A stretch of DNA of 64,000 nt from contig NZ_CAMYLS010000004.1 of NCBI RefSeq assembly GCF_947259345.1, positions 1-64,000 of the forward strand, read 5' to 3'. This DNA comes from an uncultured Maricaulis sp. Its GTDB lineage: Bacteria; Pseudomonadota; Alphaproteobacteria; Caulobacterales; Maricaulaceae. Below the pieces are notes generated by a model, which saw only the letters and a list, made by a program, of their open reading frames with translations, did not search any database and was not told the DNA's origin. This document shows, piece after piece, positions 52,376 to 60,933 of this stretch (the stretch's first letter is position 1; each line of letters starts with the position of its first letter). A program made the position numbers and the translations under genes.

Positions 52376-52762
52376 TCAACTGGCAAGGGAACGCAGCAGA
52401 TCGATTACGCGTCGTCTGACCGTCTGGTCCTTGATGCCGGAAAAGGCTGACGCCAGAGCCAGGCCGTCCGGGCTGGCAATGAAATCATACAGAGTGTCGG
52501 AATCGCCGCCCTTGAGCTCGGACGAGCCATCCTCTTCCAGGCCTTCGAAGAAGTAGGAGACCGGGACTTCCATGACTTTGGCGACATGGAACAGGCGGCT
52601 GGCGCCAATCCGGTTGGTGCCGCGTTCATACTTCTGGACTTGCTGGAACGTCACACCGAGCTTTTCGCCCAATTCCGACTGGCTCATTTCCAGAAGGCTG
52701 CGCCGCAGCCGCAGTCTGGCCCCGACATGCTGATCAATACTGGTTGGGCCTCGTGCACTCAT
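52376..52762 (-). CDS. XRE-family transcription regulator
   Basis: A 128-residue protein with a Cro/CI-type helix-turn-helix: VGARLRLRRSLLEMSQSELGEKLGVTFQQVQKYERGTNRIGASRLFHVAKVMEVPVSYFF. The C-terminal 55 residues are a helical tail ending KDQTVRRRVIDLLRSLAS. Close relatives are common in alphaproteobacteria, some under cell-cycle or symbiotic control. It starts 7 bases after the LysR-type gene and is likely co-transcribed with it. Confidence 0.9.
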   Translation of the reverse strand: MSARGPTSIDQHVGARLRLRRSLLEMSQSELGEKLGVTFQQVQKYERGTNRIGASRLFHVAKVMEVPVSYFFEGLEEDGSSELKGGDSDTLYDFIASPDGLALASAFSGIKDQTVRRRVIDLLRSLAS

Positions 52763-52769
52763 CGCGTCC

Positions 52770-53741
52770 TCACGTCTGTGGTTTGATGACTTCTACGTCG
52801 CAGAACTCGCTCGGATGGCAAAACTCTTCGCGGAACCAAGGGTGGAGTCTACGGTTGAACAGTTCTGCAATCCAGTCGGCAACGCACTTTATTCTCGATA
52901 TTCCAAGACTGCCTGGTGAATTCTTGAGCCAGAAACGGACGTCTTGATGAAAGTCATAGTCAAGAACAACCAGCTCATCCGGATACAAGGAGGCCAGATA
53001 GGTTGGTGCCATGGCAATTCCACCTCCATGGCGAATGGTTTCAAATAGCACCGAACTGATGTCCGCAGTGAAGGAATATCTTACAACCTCATCCGTTGCT
53101 GTGGCCTTTCGCTGCCACAGGTGGAGTGAGGGGTCGTACTGTTCCAGCCTCAAGAATCGCAGTGTCAGAACGTCTTCCAAGGAGCGTGGGGCGCCATAGG
53201 TCGCGATAAACTCACGTGACGCCATGGGCATGTAGTGGATGCTTCCCAGGGCTCGGGCCTCGGTATCCATTGATTTGTCCGGCGTGAAGGTCAGGCTCAG
53301 GGCTGCGGCCGTATCGCCCGCGGGCACTGAACGGTCATTGATCAATTTGAGGACGATTTCCGGATTAACGCGTTGGAACTCCGGGATATGGCGGGCCAGC
53401 CAATAGGTCGCCAGCCCATCGGGAACACGCAGGGAAACCTGCCCCGCAAGGCTGCGATCCATGCCCGCGATTTCGGTCTCAAGCCGCTGCGCGGAACGCT
53501 GCATGGTCACCGCGTAATCCAGCGCTGCTGCGCCGGCCCGGGTCAGGACGACACCGTCCGCACGCCGCTCGATCAACTGCGATGAGAGCCGACTTTCCAA
53601 TTGGCGCATTCGCTTGGAAACCGTGGATTGCTGACACCCCAGCACGGTCGCCGCCGCGCTCATGGAGCCGGTCGTGGCGACGGCATGGAAGATCTGCAGG
53701 TCGTCCCAGTCGAAGACGTTGCGACGAAGATCGCTATCCAA
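52770..53741 (-). CDS. LysR-type transcription regulator
   Basis: A 323-residue regulator. The N-terminal winged helix reads LQIFHAVATTGSMSAAATVLGCQQSTVSKRMRQLESRLSSQLIERR. The remainder is a type-2 periplasmic-binding-like effector domain, including VSLRVPDGLATYWLARHIPEF. The frame begins at a TTG (53741). It is divergent from the GNAT operon at 53831, the classical LysR arrangement, so it probably regulates that operon (inference). Confidence 0.88.
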   Translation of the reverse strand: MDSDLRRNVFDWDDLQIFHAVATTGSMSAAATVLGCQQSTVSKRMRQLESRLSSQLIERRADGVVLTRAGAAALDYAVTMQRSAQRLETEIAGMDRSLAGQVSLRVPDGLATYWLARHIPEFQRVNPEIVLKLINDRSVPAGDTAAALSLTFTPDKSMDTEARALGSIHYMPMASREFIATYGAPRSLEDVLTLRFLRLEQYDPSLHLWQRKATATDEVVRYSFTADISSVLFETIRHGGGIAMAPTYLASLYPDELVVLDYDFHQDVRFWLKNSPGSLGISRIKCVADWIAELFNRRLHPWFREEFCHPSEFCDVEVIKPQT

Positions 53742-53794
53742 GTTAAGACTACCCCCTATTCCAACTTCGCCGAAGAAGAAGTAGCTCGCCGGTG

Positions 53795-53810
53795 TTAACG
53801 AAGAATTAAC
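53795..53810. promoter_or_regulatory. CtrA-type binding site
   Basis: TTAACGAAGAATTAAC fits the CtrA full-site consensus TTAA-N7-TTAAC exactly. With the preceding G it is also a 5+5 palindrome. It lies 54 bases from the LysR start and 21 bases upstream of the GNAT-like gene start (53831). It is the only exact TTAA-N7-TTAA pair I noticed among the non-coding gaps of the window. Confidence 0.7.
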
Positions 53811-53830
53811 TACATGGCGGAGTGTGCGTA

Positions 53831-54469
53831 ATGGTGAGTGAAGGGCAGCGTCTCAGCGCCGCGAAGACAGGGTTCGAGTTTCCCCTCGAGCGGCTTGACC
53901 AGGCCTTTGGGTCCTTGGATTTCAAGCCTGTTAAGCTGTCCGAGATCGACGAGTTCCATGCCCTGGCCAACGATCTGATCGATGGCGAGATCGCCAGTGC
54001 GCAGGATATCGGCCGGGTTCAGGAATGGACCCGTCGCTCGCTCCACATGCGTCGCTGGAATGGCAGGCCTGACGGTTTCGTTGCCTCAATCCCGCTTAGC
54101 GAATCCGGCGTTTCCGCACTCCTCAGGGGCGAATTCGGTTTCGCGAATGCGCGTCGTGAGTGGGTATGCGGGCTCGAGGAAAGGGCGGCGGCGCTCCTGT
54201 CATGGGGTCTGGCAGGCCGGACGCCACATGCGCAAGCCGCCGCCTTGCGGGCGCTCCTGGTCGGTTGGCGCGGCTTCTATGACGATGTTCGTGTCTATGC
54301 GCGGGCGCGGACGACCGAGGGTAAGGCGCTGATGCGGCGCTTGAATTTTGAGATTTGTGCTTATCCGGACGGTGAAAGCCCGCTCTATGGCAGCACCGGC
54401 TTCCCGAAGAAGCTCGGCGACATGCTGTTAAAGCGGACCGTTCTCGGCGAATGGGAGGCTGCTTCGTGA
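53831..54469 (+). CDS. Degenerate GNAT-like protein
   Basis: A 212-residue protein starting MVSEGQRL. The middle and end look like a diverged N-acetyltransferase fold: RPDGFVASIPLSESGVSALL, then VRVYARARTTEGKALMRRLNFEICA, typical of the last GNAT strands. The usual acetyl-CoA Q/RxxGxG/A loop is not clear. I cannot name a family. It is first of a three-gene operon: its TGA overlaps the GTG start of the next gene (GTGA). Confidence 0.6.
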   Translation: MVSEGQRLSAAKTGFEFPLERLDQAFGSLDFKPVKLSEIDEFHALANDLIDGEIASAQDIGRVQEWTRRSLHMRRWNGRPDGFVASIPLSESGVSALLRGEFGFANARREWVCGLEERAAALLSWGLAGRTPHAQAAALRALLVGWRGFYDDVRVYARARTTEGKALMRRLNFEICAYPDGESPLYGSTGFPKKLGDMLLKRTVLGEWEAAS

Positions 54470-55068
54470 AAAACGCGATACCCGATAGTCTGGAAGTGAC
54501 CATCGCGCGCTCGCTCGACCAGGTGGTCATGGCGATGACCTTGCGCGGGGTCATCTATCTCGGCGAGCAATTCGCACCCTATGCCGAAGAGTATGACGGC
54601 AATGACTTTGTGGGGGCGGCGCATCTGATAGCCTGGCGCGGAAAGGAACCGGTCGGTGTCCTGCGCCTGCGCTTCTTTGCCGATTTCGCCAAGGTCGAGC
54701 GCGCCGCTGTCCTGCGACAGTATCGACGCTTCGGCGTCATGCGGGTGCTGATGCAGGAAGCCCAGCGTTACTCCGCGCGTCGCGGTTACAAGAAAATGCT
54801 CGGCCATGCCCAGCTCAATCGCGTGAAATACTGGCGGACCCACGGCTTCCGGATCCGGGCCGAGCGTCCCGAGTTCGGCTTCTCTGACTACAAATATGTC
54901 GAGATCGAGCGCGATCTGGTTCCGCCGGCCAATGCCATCACCATGAACACAGATCCCATGGTGGTCATCCGTCCCGATGGAGAATGGGACCGCCCGGGGC
55001 CATTTGACCTTTCGCTTGCGCGGATGCAAGAGGAAGAGGACGCGCGCAAGCCCGAGGAGGCCGCATGA
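54466..55068 (+). CDS. GNAT-family acyltransferase
   Basis: A 200-residue protein with a GTG start overlapping the preceding stop. The N-terminal half has AAHLIAWRGKEPVGVLRLRFF. The acetyl-CoA-binding region reads ERAAVLRQYRRFGVMRVLMQEAQRYSARRGYKKMLGHAQ, and KYWRTHGFRIRAERPEF completes the fold. The R/QxxGxG/A loop is only partly kept (RQYRRFGV). A 50-residue acidic C-terminal extension follows. Its stop overlaps the isochorismatase-like gene by 4 bases. Substrate unknown. Confidence 0.8.
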   Translation: MKNAIPDSLEVTIARSLDQVVMAMTLRGVIYLGEQFAPYAEEYDGNDFVGAAHLIAWRGKEPVGVLRLRFFADFAKVERAAVLRQYRRFGVMRVLMQEAQRYSARRGYKKMLGHAQLNRVKYWRTHGFRIRAERPEFGFSDYKYVEIERDLVPPANAITMNTDPMVVIRPDGEWDRPGPFDLSLARMQEEEDARKPEEAA

Positions 55069-55607
55069 CCTTTGCCGATCCCTGCCTGATCCTGCTGGAC
55101 TGTCAGCGCGACCAGGTGACCGGACCAAACGGAAAGGTCGATCCCGACAATCAGGCCGTGATTGATCGTATTGGTGACTTGCTGCGTCATGCCCGCCAAT
55201 CGGGATGGCGTGTCTGTCATTGCCAGTTCCAGGGCGAGGGATCAGCCGCCGGGCGCGCGCCGATCGACGGATTGCGGCCGACGGCCCAGGAGGCTGTTTT
55301 CAAACGTCGCGGCCTCTCGGCCTTCTCCGACCCGTTCTTCCACCAGGTATTGGCGCGCAGCGCCGGGTCGAGCGCACTGCTCGTCGGCTTTTCAGCGCCT
55401 TTCTCAATCCTGGCGACGGTTTTCGACGATGCCAATCGCGACAAGACCCTGACCGTTGTTCCCGAAGCGGTTGGTGCGCTGGCGGTCGAGCCTCGCGATG
55501 TCGCCGAGACCCGCTCCATGGCGTTTGATCTGGTTTCGCGTATGGCGCCGACCATGAGCTGGGATCGCCTGACCCAAGGCTGGTCGAGCGAGATGCCGGC
55601 GGTCTGA
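55065..55607 (+). CDS. Isochorismatase-fold protein lacking the nucleophile cysteine
   Basis: A 180-residue isochorismatase/nicotinamidase-like protein. The catalytic Asp12 (LILLDCQRD) and Lys80 (EAVFKRRGLSAF) are present. The cysteine normally found before the LATA-type helix is Ser114 in LLVGFSAPFSILATVF. It is therefore probably not a classical cysteine hydrolase; it could have changed chemistry or bind a small molecule. It is third gene of the CtrA-box/GNAT operon. Confidence 0.78.
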   Translation: MTFADPCLILLDCQRDQVTGPNGKVDPDNQAVIDRIGDLLRHARQSGWRVCHCQFQGEGSAAGRAPIDGLRPTAQEAVFKRRGLSAFSDPFFHQVLARSAGSSALLVGFSAPFSILATVFDDANRDKTLTVVPEAVGALAVEPRDVAETRSMAFDLVSRMAPTMSWDRLTQGWSSEMPAV

Positions 55608-55732
55608 CTACGGTCACCGAATACCGAGGCTGGTTCACAAGTGAGTGATGCGGCGGTTTCCTGTTCGAATTCATGAGAAATCTGCCCACTCCGGACTTTA
55701 AATCCGGAACCGGCTTTCTACATGTGGACTCG

Positions 55733-55893
55733 TAGCGGATAACGGCCGGTGCGGCTTTCCCCCAGCCAGCCAGGCCGAACCCGCTAGCGATGAACAGGCC
55801 TCTAAGTGCGTCCCCCCAGCCTGCCTATGAGGTCTGCCAGGCGCCGTCGGGTTCCCCTGTCCCTACCCGACGGCGCCGTTATCGCTACCTTTT
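55733..55893 (+). ncRNA. Candidate structured RNA, unclassified
   Basis: In the 400-base gap before the glutamate dehydrogenase gene a compact fold is possible. TAGCG-(G)-ATAACG (55733-55744) pairs with CGTTATCGCTA (55877-55887), closing a 155-base unit. CAGGCCTC (55795-55802) pairs with GAGGTCTG (55829-55836). GGCGCCGTCGGGT (55840-55852) pairs perfectly with ACCCGACGGCGCC (55865-55877). CGGCC/GGCCG (55743-55747, 55773-55777) can add another stem. CCTTTTCC follows the closing stem. Size and layout recall 6S RNA, but I cannot match conserved 6S sequence. Another weak hairpin, TCCGGA/TCCGGA, is at 55690-55708. Strand and expression are unproven; the rest of the gap shows nothing further. Confidence 0.5.
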
Positions 55894-56007
55894 CCAGCCC
55901 TGACAAAAAGAATGGCACGTTTGCGTTTTCAACGGCGTAGGCGGGTTGCGTGCATCTCAAACAGGACTAGGGTCGGTGCACAAACACAACAGTCCAGGGA
56001 GCGCCAC

Positions 56008-59000
56008 ATGGGGGCGGTCGTCGGAGTCGCGCACGCTTACAGCCGCGCAGATTTCATGGAGGCGGCGCGGAAGCGCTGGCTCGAGCTTTTCGGCGCCGAA
56101 TGCGGTGAGACCGGAAACTCTTTCTTCTCACAGATTTACGATGACGCACTTGCCGAGGATCTAGAGCGGGTTGGTCCGGCAGATCTCGCCGCACTGAGTC
56201 TGGATTTCTGGCAATTCGGCGCGACAAGGCCCGGCGACGACATTCTCGTCCGCATGAGAACCGCGACCCATGCGGATGGCACCGACCTGCCGCGTGACGT
56301 GCTGGAAATCATCGGGCGCGACCGACCTTTCATCGTCGACTCGGTGATGGGGGAGGTCGGGGCGCAGGGCCATGACATCACCGCGATGTTCCACCCGATT
56401 GTTCAGGTTCGCCGGGATAATAGTGGTGCGCGAGTCCCGGAAGGCGGTCGTTGCCTCGCCGAGTCCATGATCCAGGTACATCTTCCGCCGCTGGACGAAT
56501 TGTCACGCCGCACTCTGATCGAGGGCGTTACCGCGACTCTGGATGATGTCCGCGTTGCCGTTGAGGACTGGACCGACATGCGGGCCCAGATGGATGATGC
56601 CATCGCTCACCTCGCAGGTGCGCGAACCCATGCGTCACCAGACGAGCTGGCCGAGGCCATGGAATTCCTGCGTTGGCTGCGGGACGACCATTTCGCCTTC
56701 CTGGGCTGCCGGGTCTATGATTTCGAAGTCGATGATGACGGCTCGATGGCGCAGCGCCATCCGCGGGTCCGACCGGAAACCGGGCGCGGCGTACTGCGCG
56801 ATCCCGATCGCCATGTCCTCCGCAAGGGATCCGAACCCGCCGTCCTGACGCCGGCCATCGAAACCTTCCTGCGAGAACCCACCCCGCTGATCGTGGCGAA
56901 GGCCAATATGAAGTCGCGCGTCCATCGCCGCGTCTACATGGATTATATCGGTGTCAAACGGTATCGCGAGGATGGCGCCGTCATCGGCGAGGCCCGCTTT
57001 GTTGGCCTGTTTACCGCGGAAGCCTATGACCAGAGCGCTAGTGCCGTACCGCTGATCCGGCGCAAGGTGCGCCGCGTGCTGGAACGCGCCGGCAAGACGC
57101 CGGGCACGCACTCGGCCAAGAAGCTGCGCAATACCGTCGAGAATTTCCCGCGCGATGAACTCTTCCAGATGGACGAGAATGATCTGCTGGAAATCTCCCT
57201 GGGTATTCTGCACCTGCATGACCGCCCGCGAACAAAGCTCTTTATCCGGCGTGACCAGTTTGACCGGTTCGTCTCGGCCCTGCTCTTTGTCCCGCGTGAC
57301 CGCTATAACTCAAAGGTCCGCGAACAGGCCGGCGAATTGATCCGCGAAGCCTTTGGTGGCCGCCTCTCTGCCTTTTACCCACAATTCGGCGACAGCTCGC
57401 TGGCGCGTGTCCATTACATTATCGGCCTCAACCCGTTTGATCACCCGGAACCGGATACGGCGGAGCTCGAACGCAAGGTCGGTCGCCTGGCCCGCACCTG
57501 GGAAGACGATCTGGAAACCCATGTCCGCCGCAATGCCCCGGAAAAGATCCGGATGCGGATGGGCGCCTATCAGGACGCCTTCAAGGCCGGGTATCGCGAA
57601 CTCTATGATCCGGAGGAGGCGCTCGCCGATGTCCTCAAGATGGAATCGCTTGAGGGGTCGGAAAAGGTCGCCGTGCGCGTCTATCGCGAGGCGGATGACA
57701 ACGAGACGGACTTGCGCCTGAAGATCTATCGTGTCGGTCGGCCGGTATCGCTGTCGCGTGTCATGCCTGTGCTGGAAAATCTCGGCCTTTATGTGGTGCA
57801 GGAGACCGGATTTCCGGTGGATCGCCGCGGTGCTGATGGCGAGGCATTCGACCGGGCCCACGTCCATGATTTCGAGATGAAATCTGACGCGCTCAAGGGC
57901 CGCGACCTGGCGGAGTTGGCTCCCAGCCTCGAAGAGGCGCTGATGGCAGTCGCCGATGGCCGGGCCGAGGATGACGGCTTCAACCGCCTCATCGTCGAGA
58001 TCGGCGTGACCTGGCGTGAGGCCGCTTTCCTGCGGACTTGCGCCCGCTATCGCCAGCAGACCGGTCTCGACCCATCACAAGCGATCCAGGAAGAGGCGCT
58101 GGCCGCCTATCCGGGGATTGCGCGCGGATTGCTGGAACTGGCACGGGTCAAATTCGATCCCGATTTCACCGACGACCAGAAAGTAAGGTCGGATGCGGTC
58201 TGGGATGTTTCGGATTCGCTGCGCAAACAGCTCGATGATGTTGCCAGCCTCGACCACGACCGAGCTCTCCGGCGCATTTTTCACCTGATAGAAGCGACGC
58301 TGCGGACGAATTTTTATCAGAAGGGCGAGGACGGTCAGCCGAAATCCCGCATCGCGATCAAGATCGCCAGCGAGTTGCTGGAAGAATTGCCGCTGCCCAA
58401 GCCTTATCGAGAAATCTTCGTCTGGTCGCCGGATGTCGAGGGTGTCCACCTTCGCTTCGGCCCGGTCGCCCGTGGCGGCCTGCGCTGGTCTGACCGCCGC
58501 GACGATTTCCGAACGGAAGTGCTGGGTCTGGTCAAGGCCCAACAGGTCAAGAATGCGGTCATCGTCCCGGTCGGGTCCAAGGGGGGATTCTATCCGAAAT
58601 CCCTGCCCCGAAACGGTTCGCGCGAAGACGTGTTTGAAGCCGGTCGCGAAGCCTACAAGACCTTTATTCGCGGTCTGCTCGACCTGACCGACAATATTGT
58701 CGACGATGTCGTCATCCATCCGGACGGCACCGCGTGCTGGGATGATGACGATCCCTATCTGGTTGTCGCGGCCGACAAGGGGACGGCGACTTTCTCGGAC
58801 ACGGCCAATGGTCTCGCCACGGACGAGTTCGATTTCTGGCTCGGCGACGCTTTCGCGTCCGGCGGTTCGGCCGGCTATGACCACAAGAAGATGGGCATTA
58901 CGGCGCGGGGCGCCTGGGAATCGGTGAAGCGCCACTTCCGTGAGATGGGCAAGGACATTCAATCTGAACCCTTCACGGTGATCGGCGTCGGTGACATGTC

Positions 59001-60933
59001 TGGCGATGTCTTTGGCAATGGCATGCTCTTGTCGAAACAGATCCGCCTGGTCGCGGCCTTTGATCACCGGGACATTTTCATCGATCCCGATCCGGGCGAT
59101 CCGGAGACGATGTGGGAAGAGCGCAAGCGATTGTTCGACCTGCCGAGAACCTCCTGGCAGGACTATGACAAGTCCCTCATTTCCAAGGGTGGCGGAATCT
59201 TTGCCCGGTCGGCGAAGTCGATCCAGTTGAGCGCCGAGATCAAGGCACTCGCCGGTTTGACCAAGGATAGTGTCAGCCCGATCGAACTCATAAACGCCCT
59301 GCTGAAGGCCGACGTCGAGCTGATGTGGTTCGGCGGTATCGGCACTTATGCCAAAGCCACCTTCGAGCAGCATTGGGAAGTCGGCGACAAGACGAATGAC
59401 GGCTTGCGGGTGAATGCCAATGAAGTGCGGGCCAAGGTTATTGGCGAAGGCGCCAATCTGGGTTTCACCCAGGCGGCACGCATTGAATATGGCCGTCATG
59501 GCGGGCGAGCCAATGCCGACTTCATCGACAACTCGGCCGGCGTCGACAGTTCCGACCATGAGGTCAATATCAAGATCCTCCTGCGCCCGATGGTCCGCAA
59601 TGGCGATATGAGCCGCGACGCGCGCGACAAATTGCTGGAATCGATGACGGATGACGTCGCGACCCATGTCTTGCGTCACAATTACGATCAGTCCCTGGCG
59701 ATCTCGCTGGCCGAGCACACCTCGGCAGCGGACCTGGATGCGCATGAGCGCTTCATGGCGCGTCTCGAGGAGTTGGGTCAGCTGGACCGCGAAGTAGAGG
59801 GATTGCCCTCGGTCGAGCAGGTACGTGGCCTGAAGGCGCGGGAACAGGGCCTGACCCGGCCAGAGCTTGCCGTGCTCAACTCCTACGCCAAGATTACCCT
59901 GTTTGATCAGCTGGTGGCGTCCGACGTGCCGGATGACCCGCATTTCAGGTCCATGTTGGTCGGATACTTCCCCAAGGGTTTGCATGACTACCGCGACGCG
60001 ATGGAGGGACATCGCTTGCGTCGGGAAATCATCTCGACCGTCCTGGCCAACGAGATGATCAATCTGGGTGGACCGACTTTCATCCACCGCGCCATCGATT
60101 CCACGACCGCGGCAGTGCCTGCTATCGCCCGGGCGTTCGAAGCCGGTCGCCAGATCTTCGGTTTTGCCGAGATAACCAAGGCGATCAATGCGCTAGACAA
60201 CAAGGCGCCGGCCGCAGTCCAGGTTCAGCTGCACGAGGAAATCATCCGCCTTCTGCGCCGCCAAACCTATTGGCTGGTCCGTCGTGGTCGCAATCAGAAA
60301 TCTTCGGGTCCGGATTCCATTACCGAAGTGATCGAGGCCTATCAGCCCGGTGTCCAGAAGCTGCGGTCCATGGTGCACGAGATCATCTCGACGCATGAAC
60401 GTCGCGGCGTGAAGGCGCGCCAGAAGCGCTTCATCGAGGCCGGTGCCCCTGACGATATCGCGCTCGCTGTTGCCGAGCTGCGTCCGTTGACGTCCTCGAC
60501 GGATGTGATCGACATGGCGATGGGGTCTGACTGGCCGCTTGCCTCGACCGCATATATTTACCACGCGGTTGGCGCACGCTTTAAGTTCGACCGTTTGCGC
60601 GGCCTCGGTCAGGAAGTCTCCTCTGAACTGCATTGGGACCGTTTGGCCGTGCGGCGTCTCATGGAAGATTTCTACGCCAGCCAGCAAGCCTTTACCGCCT
60701 CGGCGATGCAGTTTGCCGTCCAGGCAGGCGGATCGTTGGCGTCCGGCGTCGAGGAGCCATCACGCGAATGGGCCGACGCACTGGTCGAAGCGTGGAACAC
60801 AATCAATGAGGAAGAGGCGGGTCGCGTCGACTCGGTTCAGCGGCAGCTCGATGAATCCGGCAGCTGGACCCTGTCCAAACTGGCCATTGCCTCGACCCAG
60901 CTCGGTGAGATGGCGGCCGTTGTTCAGCCGTGA
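56008..60933 (+). CDS. NAD-specific glutamate dehydrogenase, large type
   Basis: A 1641-residue L-GDH of the giant (GDH-180) class that converts glutamate to 2-oxoglutarate with NAD. AGGGAG precedes the ATG at 56008 by 8 bases; the frame open to 55912 has an arginine-rich, unlikely N-terminus. The N-terminal ACT-like half contains DRPFIVDSVMGEVGAQGHDI. The catalytic core has RFGPVARGGLRWSDRRDDFRTEVLG, KNAVIVPVGSKGGF, DPGDPETMWEERKRLFDLPR and EGANLGFTQAARIEYGRHGGR. The C-terminal part has RPELAVLNSYAKI. Alphaproteobacteria use this enzyme for glutamate catabolism. Confidence 0.96.
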   Translation: MGAVVGVAHAYSRADFMEAARKRWLELFGAECGETGNSFFSQIYDDALAEDLERVGPADLAALSLDFWQFGATRPGDDILVRMRTATHADGTDLPRDVLEIIGRDRPFIVDSVMGEVGAQGHDITAMFHPIVQVRRDNSGARVPEGGRCLAESMIQVHLPPLDELSRRTLIEGVTATLDDVRVAVEDWTDMRAQMDDAIAHLAGARTHASPDELAEAMEFLRWLRDDHFAFLGCRVYDFEVDDDGSMAQRHPRVRPETGRGVLRDPDRHVLRKGSEPAVLTPAIETFLREPTPLIVAKANMKSRVHRRVYMDYIGVKRYREDGAVIGEARFVGLFTAEAYDQSASAVPLIRRKVRRVLERAGKTPGTHSAKKLRNTVENFPRDELFQMDENDLLEISLGILHLHDRPRTKLFIRRDQFDRFVSALLFVPRDRYNSKVREQAGELIREAFGGRLSAFYPQFGDSSLARVHYIIGLNPFDHPEPDTAELERKVGRLARTWEDDLETHVRRNAPEKIRMRMGAYQDAFKAGYRELYDPEEALADVLKMESLEGSEKVAVRVYREADDNETDLRLKIYRVGRPVSLSRVMPVLENLGLYVVQETGFPVDRRGADGEAFDRAHVHDFEMKSDALKGRDLAELAPSLEEALMAVADGRAEDDGFNRLIVEIGVTWREAAFLRTCARYRQQTGLDPSQAIQEEALAAYPGIARGLLELARVKFDPDFTDDQKVRSDAVWDVSDSLRKQLDDVASLDHDRALRRIFHLIEATLRTNFYQKGEDGQPKSRIAIKIASELLEELPLPKPYREIFVWSPDVEGVHLRFGPVARGGLRWSDRRDDFRTEVLGLVKAQQVKNAVIVPVGSKGGFYPKSLPRNGSREDVFEAGREAYKTFIRGLLDLTDNIVDDVVIHPDGTACWDDDDPYLVVAADKGTATFSDTANGLATDEFDFWLGDAFASGGSAGYDHKKMGITARGAWESVKRHFREMGKDIQSEPFTVIGVGDMSGDVFGNGMLLSKQIRLVAAFDHRDIFIDPDPGDPETMWEERKRLFDLPRTSWQDYDKSLISKGGGIFARSAKSIQLSAEIKALAGLTKDSVSPIELINALLKADVELMWFGGIGTYAKATFEQHWEVGDKTNDGLRVNANEVRAKVIGEGANLGFTQAARIEYGRHGGRANADFIDNSAGVDSSDHEVNIKILLRPMVRNGDMSRDARDKLLESMTDDVATHVLRHNYDQSLAISLAEHTSAADLDAHERFMARLEELGQLDREVEGLPSVEQVRGLKAREQGLTRPELAVLNSYAKITLFDQLVASDVPDDPHFRSMLVGYFPKGLHDYRDAMEGHRLRREIISTVLANEMINLGGPTFIHRAIDSTTAAVPAIARAFEAGRQIFGFAEITKAINALDNKAPAAVQVQLHEEIIRLLRRQTYWLVRRGRNQKSSGPDSITEVIEAYQPGVQKLRSMVHEIISTHERRGVKARQKRFIEAGAPDDIALAVAELRPLTSSTDVIDMAMGSDWPLASTAYIYHAVGARFKFDRLRGLGQEVSSELHWDRLAVRRLMEDFYASQQAFTASAMQFAVQAGGSLASGVEEPSREWADALVEAWNTINEEEAGRVDSVQRQLDESGSWTLSKLAIASTQLGEMAAVVQP

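Follow-up and report, generated by a model that had tools for sequence, protein, structure and literature searches.

A LysR-linked gene cluster of Alphaproteobacteria encoding two GNAT-fold proteins and an isochorismatase-fold protein without the usual catalytic triad

GNAT acyltransferases hold coenzyme A (CoA) with a loop of the form [QR]xxGx[GA], genes for LysR-type regulators commonly lie divergent from their target genes, and in the isochorismatase-fold proteins EntB and PhzD the catalytic cysteine is absent and the aspartate and lysine are kept. A functional connection between a GNAT and a LysR-type regulator is described in passages of a report on Salmonella, according to which the GNAT OatA acylates a small molecule and its overexpression raises the regulon of the LysR-type protein CysB (PMC6277577). 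Here we describe a cluster from a Maricaulis sp. in which a LysR gene lies divergent from three tightly packed, translationally coupled genes that encode, in order, a degenerate GNAT-fold protein (GNAT1), a clear GNAT (GNAT2) and an isochorismatase-fold protein (ISO). It lies in the first 64 kb of contig NZ_CAMYLS010000004.1 (positions 1-64,000; this whole 64-kb stretch is called the window below). The individual folds are all known and the combination of genes was not found described: within the open-licence text covered there was no description of the LysR-GNAT1-GNAT2-ISO gene set, no GNAT pair with a dead member and no triad-less isochorismatase fold as an operon partner, which agrees with an earlier note on this DNA, made from the sequence alone, that could match the combination to no described system.

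The LysR-type regulator (323 amino acids (aa), TTG start; 52770-53741, minus strand) matches PF00126 (3.9e-19) and PF03466 (1.6e-16). On the plus strand are GNAT1 (212 aa; 53831-54469, alternative start 53822), whose assignment has its fold as basis, the ElaA/YjcF-type acyltransferase GNAT2 (200 aa; 54466-55068; PF00583, 5.1e-9) and ISO (180 aa; 55065-55607; PF00857, 1.4e-25, 90.8 bits against a cut-off of 27). The GTG start of GNAT2 is preceded by GGAGG, and an ATG at 54451 is an alternative start; the 4-base overlaps that the earlier note gave for these three genes, GTGA between GNAT1 and GNAT2 (54466-54469) and ATGA between GNAT2 and ISO (55065-55068), are borne out provided that GNAT2 begins at the GTG. 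Behind the LysR gene lies the gene for an XRE-family small helix-turn-helix (HTH) regulator (128 aa; 52376-52762, minus strand; PF01381, 7.6e-11).

A GNAT2-profile search of genome contigs was used to find this cluster elsewhere, and the best 80 of 475 relatives were taken as the locus set; 75 of the 80 have enough flanking DNA, and the set is not an unbiased sample because it was drawn from the top of the ranking. Its members are mostly Caulobacterales (the genera include Maricaulis, Oceanicaulis, Alkalicaulis, Aquidulcibacter and Phenylobacterium, and Caulobacter ginsengisoli is also present), and 30 of the 80 are Bradyrhizobium. The divergent LysR gene, GNAT1, GNAT2 and ISO are found in the same layout in 71 of the 75 loci. 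The exceptions are locus L115, in which ISO was not found, and L128, L129 and L136, in which GNAT1 and GNAT2 are fused and LysR and ISO are absent. Beyond this set, a search of 150 genomes of the order (E <= 0.001) gave GNAT1 in 45 and GNAT2 in 56, and three of the 56, with weak GNAT2 matches of 1e-5 to 1e-3, may represent different GNATs. A class-level scan found GNAT2 in 29 of 385 genomes (E <= 1e-20), the weakest of which may be other ElaA-like GNATs, and a phylum-level scan found it in 18 of 398 genomes (E <= 1e-25), all 18 of the same class, the listing not giving the share of the 398 that lies outside that class. Each of the five genes of the region (XRE included) has a ratio of nonsynonymous to synonymous substitution (dN/dS) of 0.01-0.23 against seven relatives, values that are rough because dS exceeds 1 in most pairs. 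Three genomes (G100, G112 and G132) each carry two diverged GNAT1-GNAT2 pairs, and a tblastn search with GNAT1 gave no match at 1e-5 among 72,556 plasmid records.

The same grouping is seen within Maricaulis, where the 17 of 19 genomes that have ISO also have GNAT2, LysR and GNAT1, and the other two, G093 and G153, have none of the four. These two genomes retain the flanking YbaK, XRE and NAD-dependent glutamate dehydrogenase genes and only a remnant of LysR, 38-41% identical (residues 177-313 in two pieces in G093, residues 275-316 in G153); both absences may go back to a single loss in a shared ancestor. The lost-operon site of G093 encodes an alginate-export-type outer membrane protein (PF13372; L221 8516-9874, plus strand). 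As judged from these genome comparisons, LysR, GNAT1, GNAT2 and ISO are retained or lost as a set and share one gene order.

The XRE gene behaves differently. It is present in all 19 Maricaulis genomes, including both operon-less ones, and is 87-99% identical in the other 18, unlike LysR, whose identity drops to 57-74% in the more distant Maricaulis genomes. The presence and loss of LysR match those of the operon and those of XRE do not, therefore LysR most likely serves the GNAT1-GNAT2-ISO operon and XRE is independent of it; XRE resembles a core regulator that has targets of its own. The earlier note had placed the operon opposite a LysR-XRE pair and raised the question of whether all five genes co-occur. 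The divergent, co-inherited LysR and the linkage of four of the genes stand (71 of 75 loci; the same 17 of 19 Maricaulis genomes), and the inclusion of XRE does not; we reject a five-gene unit, since XRE remains where the other four have been lost. XRE-family genes, different paralogues, lie near the cluster in 8 of 27 groups of loci, and a looser connection between such genes and the cluster is possible in the Caulobacterales. In two genomes, G065 (locus L055) and G135 (locus L054), several small XRE genes are found no more than about 6 kb from the cluster, four of eight and four of seven XRE matches, respectively. The PADLOC defence models match none of GNAT1, GNAT2 and ISO (LysR has one weak match at 0.029, and 17 models match the HTH part of XRE), and we reject a known anti-phage defence system, as the operon proteins have no PADLOC model.

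Neither Pfam nor NCBIfam gives a match for GNAT1 at E <= 1, and GNAT families are absent from the Pfam matches of 43 members at the same threshold. Its AlphaFold2 model is confident (pLDDT 91.9, pTM 0.86), and a Foldseek search of the PDB with it (best E 1.5e-5, TMq 0.38-0.51) lists 50 matches that are nearly all N-acetyltransferases or their complexes. The CoA loop motif occurs in only one of the 43 members and is missing from that of the window. The "degenerate GNAT-like" protein of the earlier note is therefore upheld as to fold, which the model predicts with confidence and on which the assignment rests, and not as a sequence family.

GNAT2 is, as had been proposed, a GNAT acyltransferase, with profile matches to 1q2y, SACOL1063 and ElaA. 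Its AlphaFold2 model (pLDDT 92.6) superimposes on SACOL1063 with a Foldseek TMt of 0.92, and the closest folds among the 50 matches listed are SACOL1063, YjcF, PA0115 and ElaA. Seven residues (R32, E47, R72, K81, E83, R84 and R92) are invariant in all 42 GNAT2 sequences compared, and most of the members listed end in a tail of the form RPEGxWDxPGxLDxSxxR, which in the window protein (residues 151-200) is ordered in the model, with confidence blocks of 88-98. The full CoA loop is present in 5 of the 42 and its [QR]xxG part in 17; the window protein has no full motif. GNAT2 is predicted to be the likeliest catalyst of the unit.

In ISO the triad columns are occupied by Asp12, Arg81 and Ser114 in place of Asp, Lys and Cys. 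Alignment confirms the serine that the earlier note had placed at the catalytic cysteine column and adds that the lysine column is changed as well; "cysteine-less", its word for the protein, is right for that column only, since ISO also contains Cys7, Cys13, Cys51 and Cys53. Among 38 ISO sequences (that of the window included) none has Asp-Lys-Cys, 26 have Asp-Arg-Ser/Thr, four keep the lysine and two have a cysteine at the catalytic column. In three loci of group g16 (L054, L055 and L058) the gene after GNAT2 encodes a protein of 117-130 aa that resembles a shrunken ISO; these proteins give weak profile matches (13.4, 11.0 and 4.3 bits), profile-profile comparison gives a probability of 74% over 83 columns, and the one scanned with Pfam had no match.

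The cluster also occurs in altered forms. GNAT1 and GNAT2 are a single open reading frame (ORF) in five loci, with GNAT1 N-terminal in all five, which argues that the two proteins touch. In seven loci of four other alphaproteobacterial families (L203-L206 and L210-L212) the GNAT1 position is held by a protein of 417-482 aa with an N-terminal half that is hydrophobic (read by eye) and a nucleotidyltransferase domain; PF01467 is above its cut-off in three of the four scanned, and there are weak NadD-type matches. ISO is next in three of these seven, and three others have a second GNAT2-like gene. This fusion lies between LysR and GNAT2 at L203 6244-7494 (minus), L204 4600-5856 (plus), L206 6213-7592 (minus) and L211 4455-5747 (plus). 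Among 20 wider loci, a full-length LysR gene was read as divergent in 12, near the cluster in another orientation in six and not found in two; in three of the six a short LysR-like ORF lies divergent. In three f52 loci an ORF of 185 aa with a weak LysR-profile match is divergent beside GNAT2 (L213 4918-5475, minus; L214 6413-6970, plus; L216 4715-5272, plus), and the full-length LysR gene lies beyond it. From this survey of wider loci we therefore take the constant core, as far as gene content tells, to be LysR with GNAT2.

Between the divergent lysR and GNAT1 genes lies a palindromic CtrA box, GTTAA-N7-TTAAC (53794-53810, a sequence pattern), which gives two overlapping matches, one on each strand. 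The earlier note had spoken of a CtrA-box operon; the box is perfect and is the sole site in the window (0.01 expected; none of 100 shuffles gave two matches). Exact TTAA-N7-TTAA occurs in 13 of 130 distinct upstream regions, where genomes in two collections are counted twice, against 0.8 expected from the background rate. In an alignment of 14 Maricaulis regions the exact box is present in eight, and three of the other six keep GTGTTAAC; L094, which was left out of the alignment, has no exact box and makes this eight of 15. Locus L052 (f1/g6) has two CtrA boxes, one box, at a different distance, is found in each of the fused, AT-richer loci L129 and L136, and the Bradyrhizobium upstream regions examined have none with one mismatch allowed. 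Since the box is patchy across Maricaulis and missing from those Bradyrhizobium regions, it is best regarded as a lineage-specific element and not as a general part of the system. The box occupies the stretch 21-36 bases ahead of the GNAT1 ATG; unless the leader is very short, an activator at -35 would be expected farther away, so that predicted CtrA control could as likely be repression of the operon or control of lysR as activation. No sigma-70 promoter-like or terminator-like sites were found at 53600-55900.

Joint inheritance, gene order, folds, missing residues and selection are read directly from these data, and the reading of them that we prefer, tentatively and at somewhat less than an even chance, is a self-contained LysR-controlled acyl-transfer module of Alphaproteobacteria in which GNAT1 and ISO are degraded partners. 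GNAT2 would be the working subunit and would acylate a small amine, with CoA or a carrier protein donating the acyl group; GNAT1 would be a catalytically dead GNAT that pairs with it like the halves of a two-domain GNAT; ISO, an isochorismatase fold without the hydrolytic triad, would be a binding or regulatory subunit; and LysR would read the substrate or product and control the operon across the shared promoter, expression being coupled in this Maricaulis clade to the cell cycle through the CtrA box between the promoters. The "small-molecule acylation and sensing pathway" suggested by the earlier note is consistent with the folds and the LysR layout, which do not reach as far as a substrate, product or ligand. 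Several points count against the module. Its chemistry, complex formation and sensing are all things that we infer; LysR and ISO are both missing from three of the five fused loci; three f40/f55 loci were found to have only LysR and GNAT2, so GNAT1 and ISO are dispensable there; and ISO was not found in five g11 loci, nor in L087 and L090, two of the five g16 loci with full context. GNAT2 itself may not be a normal acetyltransferase, because its CoA loop is incomplete in 37 of 42 sequences. The correlations between the identity matrices of the genes (r 0.87-0.97) are not counted as a sign of co-evolution, since the species tree by itself would produce them.

Some of the ISO data bear on both this module and a plainer possibility, an ordinary detoxification or catabolic operon in which an environmental amine or amide induces LysR and is acetylated by GNAT2, and ISO still acts as a hydrolase through an altered Asp-Arg-Ser/Thr site. 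Conservation of those residues in 26 of 38 sequences could mean that the active site is altered and not dead; the solved relatives 4h17 and 8cib likewise align a serine with the cysteine column and keep the lysine; and Cys13, which adjoins Asp12 in the window protein (the column is Cys in 12 of 38 and Leu in 20), may be a displaced active-site cysteine, so that loss of the cysteine and lysine from their own columns does not fully dispose of a cysteine elsewhere in the site. Divergence of a LysR gene from the enzymes that it controls is, moreover, a very common layout in general. On the other hand the lysine is kept in only four of the 38, a working enzyme would hardly survive the shrinkage suggested by the three short g16 proteins, and no transporter or further catabolic gene recurs beside the unit; we think such an operon rather unlikely, if still the most serious competitor. 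A sensor complex is improbable, in our judgement: three non-catalytic proteins would sense a small molecule or CoA and feed LysR, as might be guessed from the degradation of cofactor or catalytic motifs in all three proteins despite strong purifying selection, but the seven invariant residues of GNAT2 and the full CoA loop in five of its 42 sequences speak for an enzyme. That the genes are chance neighbours held together by synteny only is scarcely credible and already contradicted, since conservation of the flanks (YbaK, thioredoxin and NAD-dependent glutamate dehydrogenase) within Maricaulis is its one attraction, and the four genes are found again in Bradyrhizobium and Phenylobacterium, whose own flanking genes did not group with those of Maricaulis, and are lost jointly where the flanks remain.

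It is also conceivable, and in our opinion unlikely, that the unit makes a signal: GNAT2 would synthesize an N-acyl compound in the manner of LuxI/FeeM-type enzymes, LysR would be its receptor, and GNAT1, ISO or the nucleotidyltransferase would tailor or bind it. The minimal unit elsewhere is indeed LysR beside GNAT2, the CoA loop is mostly incomplete, and the FeeM profile PF21926 matches 21 of the 42 GNAT2 sequences at E <= 0.1 and, in a single control, does not match E. coli ElaA. Two of 19 scanned singly pass its cut-off of 27 bits (L203 with 27.4 and L046 with 35.4; FeeM is the best Pfam match of L046), each over about 40% of the profile. The GNAT2 of the window, however, is not among the 21; apart from a weak match at 31-52 the matches lie at about 80-145 of the 158 profile positions, in the half common to GNATs; the LuxI profile PF00765 (Autoind_synth) matches one of the 42, at 0.047; and no LuxI-type synthase is named among the 50 fold matches listed. 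We do not accept GNAT2 as a FeeM/LuxI member on half-profile matches that are mostly below cut-off and lacking for the window protein. A carrier-protein-using, signal-making GNAT2 is possible from its sequence. In the boldest version, which we would call a long shot, the core is a new synthase-receptor pair: a tailed, loop-degraded GNAT2 would make an N-acyl metabolite sensed by LysR, and different lineages would have added either GNAT1 with a dead isochorismatase or a membrane nucleotidyltransferase, which would modify or hold this metabolite. If true, Alphaproteobacteria would have an acyl-signal system that is as yet uncharacterised and that is connected to CtrA in some Maricaulis.

Comparison of the 27 groups of loci gave no recurrent further pathway gene beside the unit. 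Six further groups of neighbours, outside the unit and distinct from XRE and the nucleotidyltransferase, span 3-5 of the 27; their scanned members are parts of ABC transporters of differing kinds and a histidine kinase, which were not counted as pathway genes. In f1 relatives there is an isoaspartyl-peptidase-like neighbour gene (named by eye). Elsewhere in the window a scan for RNA elements at gathering thresholds found one tRNA only, and a 670-codon open frame (58075-60087, minus strand) antisense to the glutamate dehydrogenase gene probably arises from codon usage.

Whether in marine prosthecate bacteria or in soil Bradyrhizobium, the four genes are inherited as a set and lost as a set, and such genes must share one job. 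Of the three operon proteins, two have retained the fold and lost the usual catalytic or cofactor residues, and the third has a conserved tail that is absent from the ElaA control. The system is small, and two natural loss genomes together with the fused, reduced and replaced versions offer ready comparisons. Returning to our preferred acyl-transfer module, OatA and CysB of Salmonella are a functional precedent in that a GNAT product influences a LysR regulon; a paired GNAT or an isochorismatase fold goes unmentioned for OatA in the passages concerned (PMC6277577). With the FeeM/LuxI synthases the module has in common a partial FeeM profile likeness of some GNAT2 members, but this is confined to half-profile, mostly sub-cut-off matches, and the LuxI profile gives the single match at 0.047. 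ISO contains the domain of the isochorismatase-like hydrolases (PF00857; 4h17, 3hu5 and 8cib; 4h17 profile match 2e-28) and differs from them in that Asp-Lys-Cys is found in none of its sequences. Also close is the ElaA/YjcF/SACOL1063 family (5z6n, 1q2y and 5jph), whose fold GNAT2 has (TMt 0.83-0.92) and whose E. coli member ElaA carries a signature, EQ..PY..D.DG.D..G, that is also present in GNAT2. Unlike the E. coli ElaA control, GNAT2 has the ordered C-terminal tail, and unlike the proteins of that family it is accompanied by LysR, GNAT1 and ISO.

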